DNA of 64,000 nt, taken from Streptacidiphilus neutrinimicus. Lineage in GTDB: Bacteria; Actinomycetota; Actinomycetes; Streptomycetales; Streptomycetaceae. The notes under the pieces are model-generated. The model was given only the letters and a program-made list of their open reading frames with translations, ran no database searches and was not told the DNA's origin. The stretch is taken from contig NZ_BBPO01000027.1 of NCBI RefSeq assembly GCF_000787815.1, positions 15,281 to 79,280 of the forward strand, read 5' to 3'. The position numbers were made by a program, and so were the translations under genes. Below, piece after piece: positions 20,477 to 24,279 of this stretch. The first letter of the stretch is position 1. Each line of letters starts with the position of its first letter.

Positions 20477-22111
20477 ATGCCCTCACCCCGGACCGTCCTG
20501 CGCGGCGCGCTCGTCGTCGACGGCAGCGGCGGCGCGCCCTACCGCGCCGACGCCGTTCTCGACGAAGGCCGCGTCTCCGCGCTGCACCGTGAGGGCGATC
20601 CGGGGCCCCGGCCCGGCGGCGGCCGGGTCCTCGACGTGGACGGGCTGGCGCTCACGCCCGGCTTCGTCGACATGCACGCGCACTCCGACCTGGCCCTGTT
20701 GACCGACCCGGGCCACGAGGCGAAGGTCGCCCAGGGCGTCACCCTGGAGGTGCTCGGCCAGGACGGGCTCTCGTACGCGCCCGTCGACGACACGACCCTG
20801 GCCGGTCTGCGCCGTCAACTCGCCGGCTGGAACGGGGACCCGTCGGACGCGGACTTCGACTGGAACTGGCGCAGCGTCGGCGAGTACCTGGCCCGACTCG
20901 ACGCCCGGGGCATCGCCGTCAACGCCGCCTACCTGGTTCCGCAGGGGACGCTGCGCGCGCTGGTGCTCGGCTGGGAGGACCGCCGGGCCACACCCGGCGA
21001 GCTGGACCGGATGCGGCGGCTTCTCGCGCAGGGCCTCGACCAGGGCGCGGTCGGCATGTCCTCCGGGCTGACGTACACACCGGGCATGTACGCCGACGCC
21101 GCCGAACTCACCGCGCTGTGCGAGGTGGTGGCGGCCCACGGCGGCTACTGGTGCCCGCACCACCGCTCCTACGGAGCGGGCGCGCTGGAGGCCTACGCGG
21201 AGGTCGTCGCCATCGCCCGCGCCTCCGGCTGCGCGCTGCACCTGGCCCACGCCACGATGAACTTCGAGGTCAACCGCGGTCGCGCCGGCGAGCTGCTGTC
21301 CCTCGTCGACGCCGCCCTCGCCGACGGCGTCGACCTGACCCTGGACAGCTACCCCTACCTCCCCGGCTCGACCACCCTCGCCGCGCTGCTCCCGGGCTGG
21401 GCGGCCGCGGGCGGACCGGCGAGGACGCTGCGCCGTCTCGCGGATCCCGCGGCACGGGCGCGCATCCGCGCCGACCTGGAGGTGCACGGCTCCGACGGTT
21501 GTCACGGCGTCATCGCCGACTGGGACACGGTGCAGGTCAGCGGCGTCCGCGAGCCCGCACTGCGCTCCGCGGTGGGCCTGACGGTCCGGCAGCTCGCACA
21601 GCGGGACGGCGTCGAGCCGTTCGAGGCGTTCGCAGGCCTGCTGCTCGACGACGGCCTCGGCACGACGATCCTGCAGCACGTCGGCCACGAGGAGAACGTC
21701 CGCGCCGTCATGCGCCATCCGGCGCACTGCGGCGGCAGCGACGGCCTGCTGACCGGCGACCGCCCGCATCCGCGCGCCTACGGCACCTTTCCCCGCTATC
21801 TCGGCGCCTACGTCCGGGAGGAGGGGGTCCTCTCCCTCCCGGAGGCCGTGCGCCACCTGTCCGCCAACCCGGCCCGCCGCCTCGGCCTCCCCGACCGCGG
21901 CCAGGTGCGCGAGGGCTGGGTCGCGGACCTGGTCCTGCTCGACCCGGGGACCGTCGCCGCGGAGGCGACGTTCGAGGATCCGCGCAGGACCCCGAGCGGG
22001 ATCCCGTACGTGTTCGTGGGCGGCGTCGCGGTGATGGACGACGGACGACGGACCGACGCGCTGCCGGGCCGGGCGATCACCCGACGTTCGTCGACTGGGA
22101 CGCCGGCGTGA
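20477..22111 (+). CDS. N-acyl-D-amino-acid deacylase family amidohydrolase
   Basis: A 544-residue metal-dependent amidohydrolase of the D-aminoacylase type. The metal motif is in GFVDMHAHSDLALL. Other family blocks are YTPGMYADAAEL, CALHLAHATMNF and HCGGSDGLLTGDRPHPRAYGTFPRYL. It releases free D-amino acids from N-acyl forms, feeding the upstream deaminase. It starts at ATG 20477 with GAAGG. Its 3' end overlaps the convergent GH5-like gene by 35 bp. Confidence 0.88.
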   Translation: MPSPRTVLRGALVVDGSGGAPYRADAVLDEGRVSALHREGDPGPRPGGGRVLDVDGLALTPGFVDMHAHSDLALLTDPGHEAKVAQGVTLEVLGQDGLSYAPVDDTTLAGLRRQLAGWNGDPSDADFDWNWRSVGEYLARLDARGIAVNAAYLVPQGTLRALVLGWEDRRATPGELDRMRRLLAQGLDQGAVGMSSGLTYTPGMYADAAELTALCEVVAAHGGYWCPHHRSYGAGALEAYAEVVAIARASGCALHLAHATMNFEVNRGRAGELLSLVDAALADGVDLTLDSYPYLPGSTTLAALLPGWAAAGGPARTLRRLADPAARARIRADLEVHGSDGCHGVIADWDTVQVSGVREPALRSAVGLTVRQLAQRDGVEPFEAFAGLLLDDGLGTTILQHVGHEENVRAVMRHPAHCGGSDGLLTGDRPHPRAYGTFPRYLGAYVREEGVLSLPEAVRHLSANPARRLGLPDRGQVREGWVADLVLLDPGTVAAEATFEDPRRTPSGIPYVFVGGVAVMDDGRRTDALPGRAITRRSSTGTPA

Positions 22112-23531
22112 GCCGCAGCGTGTGAACCGTCCCCGGCACGGGATGGGTGACCGTCAGGGCGAGGATGTGACGCGCTGGATCCCAGATGCCGGTGTACTCC
22201 GTGTCGAAGTCGATCTGCGGGCCGAACGGGAAGTCCGACGGCGGGAGATAGACCTCCGTCGGGCCGGTGACCCCGGCCTCGTCGCGGAACTGGAGCGTGA
22301 ACGCGAGAATGCCCTTGTCGTAGTCGAAGGCCACCGGCGTTCCGGCGATCACCCGCGGGTACGCGGTCTGCAGGACGTCCGCGATGTCCGCGCCCTTGCC
22401 GGGCCGCTGCCAGGGCGACCACGGGCCCGGCGCGGCCGTGCAGCAGGCCGAGCCCGCCATCAGGCTGTCGAGCAGCGCCTGCACGTGGTCGACGAAGAGG
22501 TGCGCGCCGGGTGCGGTGAAGTCCGCACCCCAACCGCTCACCAGGACCGGAGCGTTCAGGCGCTTGGCGGTCCGGGTGATCTGGATGGCCCAGGAGTTGA
22601 GGAAGCGGTCGGTCCAGAAGGCGCCGGTGCCGGTGTAGTTCCCGTTCGGGTCGACCGGTGCGGGGTAGAGCTGCGGGGCGTAGCCGATGCGGGCGTCGCC
22701 GTGGCGCGGGTCCGGCAGGTAGGGCAGGGCGCTCGGGAGCCCGGTGTCCGCGGACGCGGCCTCCGGCTCGACGAAGAGCCAGTGGCCCTGGTCGACGGCG
22801 CGGACGCGGGCGATGACGCGCTCGTAGAAGGCGGCCAGCGCACCCGTCTCGAAGCCAGGCCCCTGGAGGGATCCGCCCCAGGGGCGGTCCAGCAGGTCGA
22901 ACCCCACGACGGCGTCGGCGGGCGGGAGCAGTCCGCCGCTGTGCGGGAGGTGCGCGGCCAGGTAGCTCGCGATGTGCGCCCAGGCCGCGGCGTAGCGGTC
23001 CTGGAGGTCGGGGGCGTCGTCGCGGGTGTGCCAGAACTCGTCGGCCGCGTGGATCCGGGCGGCGTCCACCGCGACCGGGGCGGACGCGGTGCCGGGCGGC
23101 GGACCGTAGGCGTCCTGGGTCATCGCGAGTACCACGTGGTCGCCCACGGCGGTGTCCTGCTCGACGCGCCGGACGAGCCCGGCGAGGTAGGCGTCGTCGT
23201 AGTGGCCCGGGCTCGGCTCGACGCCGCTCCAGTGCAGCAGGATCCGGGAGAAGTCGTCCCCGAGCAGCCCGTACTCGTCGGCTGCTTCATCCGCCGGCGA
23301 CGCGCTCGCGGACGCCGACGCGGACGCCGACGAGGCGGGCGCGCCGGGCGCGGACGCGGGGGCGTCGTCCGTGTTCAGGCCGTAGAGGATCAGCGCCCGG
23401 CCCCGGGCGTCCGTCAGGAAGCGCGGCGTCGTCGCCCCGACCGCCGCGGGCGTGCCGAGCCGCACCAGCAGCCCCGCCGCGCAGGCCAGGACCGCCAGTC
23501 CCGTGAGCCATCGACGCGCACGTCCGCGCAC
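22077..23531 (-). CDS. Secreted GH5 / endoglycoceramidase-like protein, probable pseudoenzyme
   Basis: A 484-residue protein with a signal peptide (about 1-33), a Ser-Ala low-complexity stretch (about 66-80), a GH5-like TIM barrel and a small C-terminal beta domain (YTGIWDPARHILALTV). The strand-4 motif that normally reads N-E-P with the acid/base Glu is GFDLLDRPWGG here. The strand-7 motif that normally carries the nucleophile (GEWG or TEFG) is VLVSGWGADF. Both catalytic Glu appear to be replaced, so hydrolysis is unlikely. It may bind glycan or glycolipid instead. The frame is intact and codon use is normal, so it is not a decayed gene. Confidence 0.75.
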   Translation of the reverse strand: MRGRARRWLTGLAVLACAAGLLVRLGTPAAVGATTPRFLTDARGRALILYGLNTDDAPASAPGAPASSASASASASASPADEAADEYGLLGDDFSRILLHWSGVEPSPGHYDDAYLAGLVRRVEQDTAVGDHVVLAMTQDAYGPPPGTASAPVAVDAARIHAADEFWHTRDDAPDLQDRYAAAWAHIASYLAAHLPHSGGLLPPADAVVGFDLLDRPWGGSLQGPGFETGALAAFYERVIARVRAVDQGHWLFVEPEAASADTGLPSALPYLPDPRHGDARIGYAPQLYPAPVDPNGNYTGTGAFWTDRFLNSWAIQITRTAKRLNAPVLVSGWGADFTAPGAHLFVDHVQALLDSLMAGSACCTAAPGPWSPWQRPGKGADIADVLQTAYPRVIAGTPVAFDYDKGILAFTLQFRDEAGVTGPTEVYLPPSDFPFGPQIDFDTEYTGIWDPARHILALTVTHPVPGTVHTLRLTPASQSTNVG

Positions 23532-23615
23532 CCCTCACCCCCGTGCAGTCATGGTGATCGTAGATCCACTACCTGGAAGCGCGCAGGGAGTCGTCCTGAT
23601 TCTGTATCAACATCG

Positions 23616-23637
23616 ACGCGCACCGGCCGGTGCGCGT
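23616..23637. promoter_or_regulatory. Perfect 22-bp palindrome between divergent genes
   Basis: ACGCGCACCGG followed directly by its reverse complement, with no spacer. It is centred in the 127-bp gap between the GH5-like gene and the membrane protein gene, 22 bp before the latter's start. It could be an operator or a hairpin in the leader. Confidence 0.5.
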
Positions 23638-23658
23638 GCGCACGGGTAAAGTCCGGCC

Positions 23659-24279
23659 ATGACCCCGCGCCTGGACCGGCCCCGTTCCGTGCTGCTCGCG
23701 GGCCTGGCCGCGGCCCTGCTGCTGGTGCTGGCCCTCGGCACGGGCACGGTGTGGCTGCGGCTGACGGACGCGTTCCCCTCGGTGCTGCGCGACGCGGCCC
23801 TCGGGGTGCCGCCGTTCCTGCCGGGGCTGCGCCCGGATCCGCGCGGGGACAGCACCTGGGCGTTCACCCTCTCGGAGGATTTCGCGGCACTGCTGCTGGT
23901 CGGCTCCGTCGCGCTGCGGCTCCGTCGCCACGTGGTGCGCCATCCCTACGCGGGCGCGCTGCGGCGGTTGGGCGCGGCCTGGTCCGCGGTAGTGCTGGGC
24001 GGGGCGGTCGCCGGGGTGTTCCGTGGGCTCGCGCTGGCGCGGATGACCGGCGCGGCGCCGCTCGGCTGGACGGTCCATCCGCTCGCCGGAGCCGTGGCGG
24101 GTGCGGTCTGGGGCGTGCTGCTGGGCTGGACGGTCGGCCTGGCCGCCGCGCTCGTCGGCAACCGCCGACTGCGGCAGCTGCGGCCGTCGGGCACGGCCGC
24201 CGCGCCGGCGGCGCGCCTCTCCCACGTCCCCCTCCCACATGGTGAAAATCACCGCGCGGCGGGTATGGCGAGGCACTAG
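23659..24279 (+). CDS. Hypothetical membrane protein
   Basis: A 206-residue protein I do not recognise. It has four hydrophobic segments: about 11-34 (VLLAGLAAALLLVLALGTGT), 72-87, 108-125 and 143-168. A short extracytoplasmic-type stretch rich in Pro/Asp lies after the first, and the C-terminal tail is basic and Ala-rich. It ends 11 nt before the aminotransferase start. That gene has its own -10 box, so co-transcription is uncertain. Confidence 0.7.
   Translation: MTPRLDRPRSVLLAGLAAALLLVLALGTGTVWLRLTDAFPSVLRDAALGVPPFLPGLRPDPRGDSTWAFTLSEDFAALLLVGSVALRLRRHVVRHPYAGALRRLGAAWSAVVLGGAVAGVFRGLALARMTGAAPLGWTVHPLAGAVAGAVWGVLLGWTVGLAAALVGNRRLRQLRPSGTAAAPAARLSHVPLPHGENHRAAGMARH

Follow-up and report, generated by a model that had tools for sequence, protein, structure and literature searches.

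An endoglycoceramidase II-like protein lacking both catalytic glutamates, encoded beside a divergent membrane-protein gene in Streptacidiphilus

Endoglycoceramidase II and the non-catalytic proteins of GH5

Pseudoenzymes usually derive from a spare gene copy. In the GH5 family, Aspeborg et al. 2012 (PMC3526467) placed endoglycoceramidase II (EGC II, 2OSX) in GH5_28 and recognized several non-catalytic groups, namely GH5_30, a Xanthomonas subgroup of GH5_1 and a subgroup of GH5_8. The same paper cites Rsi24C-GH5, a non-catalytic GH5 protein of C. thermocellum that is a cellulose sensor, and several of its non-catalytic cases are fused to another module, although fusion is not a strict requirement. 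Rhodococcus EGC II itself has been studied in disarmed form, as the E351S variant was crystallised with GM3 (PDB 2osx) and the double variant E351S/D314Y was used as a glycosynthase (PMC10796935). In a genome survey of Streptacidiphilus (PMC7601586), GH5 genes were counted as potential endoglucanases; endoglycosylceramidase was not found when the text of that survey was searched. Our search of the open-access literature found no published EGC pseudoenzyme, EGC-adjacent membrane protein or pair of such genes.

Here, we describe a protein encoded in the window, that is, the whole stretch of 64,000 nucleotides of Streptacidiphilus neutrinimicus DNA that was analysed. With respect to Rhodococcus EGC II (GH5_28; 2osw/2osx/2osy), the window protein is alike in full-length homology and in combining a barrel with a C-terminal beta domain, but both Glu, like most of the invariant GH5 site, are replaced and it lacks the loop with W178, so that EGC hydrolysis is not expected. 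It resembles the non-catalytic proteins of Aspeborg et al. in its GH5 fold, its lost machinery and its long branch; however, none of those comes from the EGC branch, to which the window protein belongs, and the latter is unfused, its Pfam domains being GH5 and GH5_C only. It also differs from them in having arisen in place from the single EGC II-type copy; intact orthologs occupy the same locus, and a membrane-protein gene is its conserved neighbour. The engineered E351S glycosynthase has a natural counterpart in one group of orthologs (clade B, below), which bears the same E351 to Ser change but has also lost the acid/base residue (now Gln) and the His of strand beta3, whereas the window protein shows Arg at the acid/base position and Gly at that of the nucleophile. 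Non-catalytic GH5 proteins are already known, and a case from the EGC branch with parallel loss and a conserved partner adds to them.

The gene, its orthologs and the remodelled active site

The gene forms one frame without internal stops, and its GC content per codon position (0.73/0.56/0.94) is typical of a high-GC actinomycete. An earlier note on this DNA had described an intact frame, normal codon use and a C-terminal beta domain, and all three hold (Table 1). It had also described a signal peptide: a hydrophobic N-terminal helix is indeed present, which may be a cleaved peptide or equally a membrane anchor. The Pfam Cellulase profile scores the window protein at 19.6 bits, under its cut-off of 23.5 (intact orthologs score above 110), and the NCBIfam profile of endoglycoceramidase I matches it weakly, at 46 bits with a cut-off of 700. 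The 3' end of the gene overlaps that of the convergent D-aminoacylase-like gene by 35 bp (22077-22111). An antisense ORF (22122-24245, plus strand, 707 aa) was discarded as a by-product of high-GC coding, since its GC by codon position mirrors that of the minus-strand gene.

Table 1. Features of the locus, in positions of the window.
Feature	Position	Strand	Basis or remark
Non-catalytic endoglycoceramidase II-like protein (GH5_28-type barrel and GH5_C beta domain), 484 aa	22077..23531	-	GTG start at 23531; stop ends at 22077
N-terminal hydrophobic helix, residues 2-24	23460..23528	-	Helix in the model; residues 9-27 form a hydropathy peak
C-terminal beta domain, Pfam Glyco_hydro_5_C, about residues 390-474	22110..22364	-	Pfam 5e-11
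D215-R216-P217 codons (DRP; EGC II N232-E233-P, acid/base), end of strand beta4 (model strand 208-215)	22881..22889	-	
S332-G333-W334 codons (EGC II G-E351-F, nucleophile), end of strand beta7 (model strand 329-334)	22530..22538	-	
Conserved TGATCGTAGATC; -10-like TACGAT on the minus strand, 26 nt before GTG	23555..23566	-	Alignment of intergenic regions, 13 species
Partner gene: 206-aa small membrane protein with about 4 TM segments and without a Pfam family	23659..24279	+	Divergent

Each of the 14 Streptacidiphilus genomes has an ortholog at this locus, with constant flanks: the D-aminoacylase-like gene on one side and the genes of the membrane protein, an aminotransferase and PEPCK on the other. 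The same gene order surrounds the orthologs of three Streptomyces (G201, G330, G351). In clade A (G000, G002, G004, G006, G007, G008 and G009, seven species including that of the window), the acid/base motif reads DRP and the nucleophile motif SGW, GGW or GAW. Clade B (G001, G011, G012) has SQP or GQP with GSW; more specifically, these orthologs (L014-L016) carry natural replacements of the acid/base Glu by Gln and of the nucleophile Glu by Ser. Clade C (G003, G005, G010), the three Streptomyces and five distant actinomycetes have NEP with GEW, GEY or GEF and are catalytically intact by sequence. The remaining genome, G013, was left out, as its ortholog is broken, several neighbours are fragmented too and the assembly is 76% complete; the fragmentation around this gene (L061) probably reflects sequencing errors. 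The earlier note had proposed a family tree as a check on whether DRP defines a clade, and it does, in 7/7 species; that note did not mention that clade B lost the residues in parallel, that intact orthologs share the locus or that a membrane-protein gene is conserved next to it.

By sequence, the closest PDB relative of the window protein is Rhodococcus EGC II (phmmer, 2osx/2osw/2osy, E 1.3e-68), with homology over the full length. This alignment sets LMNEPFGG of EGC II against LLDRPWGG, and ILGEFGLD against LVSGWGAD, so that N232, E233 and E351 of EGC II correspond to D215, R216 and G333. EGC II numbering here is the PDB chain index plus 9; that of K66, D137, W178, Y306 and W382 fits the same offset. 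The acid/base Glu after strand 4 is thus replaced by R216 in 7/7 clade A species, and the nucleophile Glu after strand 7 by G333 (Ala in one of them). The codons now present, CGC or CGT for R216 and GGT, GGC or GCC for G333, lie several changes from GAG; together with the occurrence of DRP in seven species, this rules against an assembly error. All seven have also lost H138 (HQD to TQD), H287 (YxPH to YAPQ), N215 and K59, while R96 is kept, Y289 is kept in 5/7 and W364 is lost in 6/7. The loop with the GNGAPxWAT and WELxY motifs (W178 of EGC II) is deleted in the clade, and YW has become a pair of vicinal cysteines in 5/7 species.

We further analyzed the fold by prediction. The AlphaFold2 model of the window protein (43 sequences, pLDDT 83, pTM 0.84) is predicted to form a (beta/alpha)8 barrel followed by a C-terminal beta domain, as in EGC II, which is its best match among PDB structures (TM 0.80/0.86, 32-33% identity, 2osx). 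For the intact ortholog of G005, the model (pLDDT 90) matches EGC II at TM 0.96 with 46% identity (2oym), and its strands 207-214 (E215) and 332-337 (E336) correspond to window strands 208-215 (D215/R216) and 329-334 (G333). Neither in the alignment nor at the model strand ends did we find a replacement Glu at either catalytic site. The absence of both glutamates claimed by the earlier note is therefore confirmed against EGC II, and the comparison with an AlphaFold model that it had suggested returned the EGC II fold (TM 0.86) with no other Glu taking over. Judging from these residues, EGC-type hydrolysis is almost certainly gone in the window protein. Glycan or glycolipid binding, which the earlier note had suggested, may be the role of the window protein, but it is rather unlikely that clade A proteins still bind the ancestral ligand. 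Their -1 subsite, where the sugar next to the cleaved bond lies, has been extensively rebuilt by the Arg at the acid/base position, the loop deletion and, in most species, the change of YW to CC.

A scan of the genome contigs found one relative. A distant GH5 paralog, here called the L003 type (L003, L018-L026 and L030, on other contigs), retains NEP and GEWG; in the same genome it is EGC-like, with about 30% identity and the same domain order, but its catalytic residues are intact and it lies at another locus, and it is not an ortholog of the window gene. It is present in 7/7 clade A, 2/3 clade B and 0/3 intact clade C genomes and is a possible functional replacement of the EGC II-type gene, with few independent events behind this distribution. 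Beside the dead orthologs, no second EGC II-type copy was found.

The divergent membrane-protein gene and a proposed binding role

The partner gene belongs to an undescribed family of membrane proteins of about 200 aa (L138-L152 and the window member) without a Pfam match. All 22 genomes checked that carry an EGC II-type gene, dead or intact, have it divergently beside that gene: the 14 of Streptacidiphilus, 3 of Streptomyces and 5 of distant actinomycetes. At 1e-6, it was absent from 186 other Streptomycetaceae. Of 395 sampled Actinomycetia, 6 have an EGC II-type gene and 7 the membrane protein, with 6 having both (p=1.4e-12), the six carriers spanning three families and not all being phylogenetically independent; the seventh membrane-protein genome has a weak match, with no EGC gene nearby. 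The mean distance of the membrane protein is 0.34 in clade A, 0.35 in clade B and 0.07 in clade C, while PEPCK and the aminotransferase differ little, and the faster evolution of both genes of the pair in the dead clades also fits relaxed constraint. In a mirror-tree analysis, the partial correlation of the pair (0.53) does not single it out from unrelated neighbours (0.54-0.58), so that the link between the two genes rests on their adjacency and co-occurrence. We consider it likely that the two proteins are functionally linked. As the gene pair outlived catalysis, it points to a non-hydrolytic role, probably in binding or as a partner.

These results show that an EGC II gene lost its acid/base and nucleophile machinery at its original chromosomal place, as the sole EGC II-type copy, and was then kept under purifying selection, across the genus most likely twice. 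We propose that the protein would now be an outward-facing, non-hydrolytic binding subunit that works with the divergent membrane protein and whose rebuilt barrel groove captures, docks or senses a glycan, a glycolipid or a lipid. This non-hydrolytic role of the pair would probably predate the loss, having existed alongside catalysis. As a whole, this is the best explanation we have, and we hold it at about even strength; that the protein has a ligand-binding role in particular is a shade less probable. In clade B, changes of Glu to Gln or Ser are, by analogy, of a type that removes catalysis and can leave binding, while in clade A the ligand may differ from the ancestral one, the pocket being rebuilt. 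A broader proposal, tentative and rather doubtful, is that actinobacterial EGC II-type proteins would make up one half of a membrane module of two genes, with a main role other than hydrolysis, the site having been removed twice in Streptacidiphilus while the module kept binding, sensing or transport.

The strict co-occurrence and adjacency of the pair, and its survival after the loss of catalysis, would equally be expected if the role were one of protein-protein contact only, the EGC-fold protein being a scaffold or chaperone of the membrane protein with a ligand-free barrel. We regard this as unlikely, since the strongest invariance in clade A includes DRPWGGS and YAPQ at the barrel mouth, which a pure scaffold would not need.

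Selection on the gene and the history of the loss

Synonymous and nonsynonymous changes were compared by NG86, taken as the main figure because YN00 estimates are missing for many distant pairs. The dN/dS is 0.32 in the clade A core, 0.39 in deep clade A, 0.42 in clade B and 0.32 in intact clade C, with bootstrap intervals below 0.61 in all five single pairs; YN00 gives 0.08 both in the clade A core and in clade C, with many distant pairs not covered. Pseudogene status was rejected, as the frame is unbroken and dN/dS, at 0.3-0.4, is not near 1. The stem of clade A measures 0.41 in the gene tree and 0.09 in the flanking-gene tree, a raised rate, and that of clade B 0.15 and 0.06, less raised relative to the species tree. 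Losses concentrate at the active site: in each dead clade, 5/9 scored active-site columns were lost versus 9/106 others (Fisher p 0.0012). Upstream of the gene, the -10-like element, a putative promoter, is kept in dead and intact lineages, as TAGGAT in intact clade C. A 22-bp perfect palindrome, ACGCGCACCGGCCGGTGCGCGT (23616-23637), between the divergent genes occurs in this genome only and was therefore discarded as a conserved operator.

The earlier note had regarded the protein as a maintained pseudoenzyme, which agrees with an NG86 dN/dS of about 0.3, matching the intact clade, and with the presence of the gene in 14/14 genomes; the gene is very probably maintained and not decaying. A slowly decaying remnant, its function dispensable and perhaps taken over by the distant paralog with intact Glu, would explain why the gene and its partner evolve faster in the dead clades, and likewise the distribution of the L003-type paralog described above. 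Such decay is improbable, as the 10 dead orthologs (G013 not counted) hold no stop or frameshift despite deep divergence, and the dN/dS intervals lie far below 1. In addition, the upstream element is conserved, DRPWGGS is invariant in the seven clade A species, which share roughly 60-85% identity, and 68 of the 115 positions that do not vary among 11 intact-type sequences are retained by all members of clade A (92 by those of clade B).

Trees were compared to count the losses. The flanking-gene tree (3551 columns) joins clades B and C (100/100), and so does an unlinked rpoB+gyrB tree (1879 columns; 100/100), in which A+B is rejected (p=5e-6). Since the species tree joins B with intact clade C, catalysis was most likely lost twice, and we think it probable that clades A and B lost it separately. 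When all columns are used, the EGC gene tree unites A and B (94/91) without rejecting B+C (p 0.12), and the change of His287 to Gln and several other residues are common to A and B, as would be expected if the loss had been single, in the Streptacidiphilus ancestor, with clade C regaining an intact gene by recombination. That history, which concerns the order of events and not the function, is also improbable: the preference for A+B vanishes once active-site and gappy columns are dropped (B+C p 0.43), the replacement residues differ (DR versus SQ/GQ; G/A versus S), and clade C lies inside the genus (100/100) with its gene at the shared locus, which would require an intact Streptacidiphilus lineage as donor. 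Lastly, a new enzyme whose remodelled pocket (D215, R216, the vicinal cysteines and the retained carboxylates D140, D212 and E255) does other chemistry, such as a lyase or transferase reaction on a glycolipid, is very unlikely. In its favour, D215, R216 and Q287 are themselves invariant in clade A, a carboxylate remains near the former acid/base position, and E255 and D212 do not vary even in the dead clades, but clade B has S/G-Q-P with no Asp there, making a common new reaction unlikely, no cofactor motif was seen, and such a set of residues is not known to us from any chemistry on a GH5 fold.

In conclusion, sister species carry this ortholog at one and the same locus, intact in some and disarmed in others, which is a natural experiment on the functions that survive without catalysis. 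Soil bacteria that carry EGC II-type proteins are not known to encounter animal glycolipids. The role of EGC II-type proteins in these soil bacteria can be approached through their strict pairing with a so far undescribed family of membrane proteins, which is a testable handle.
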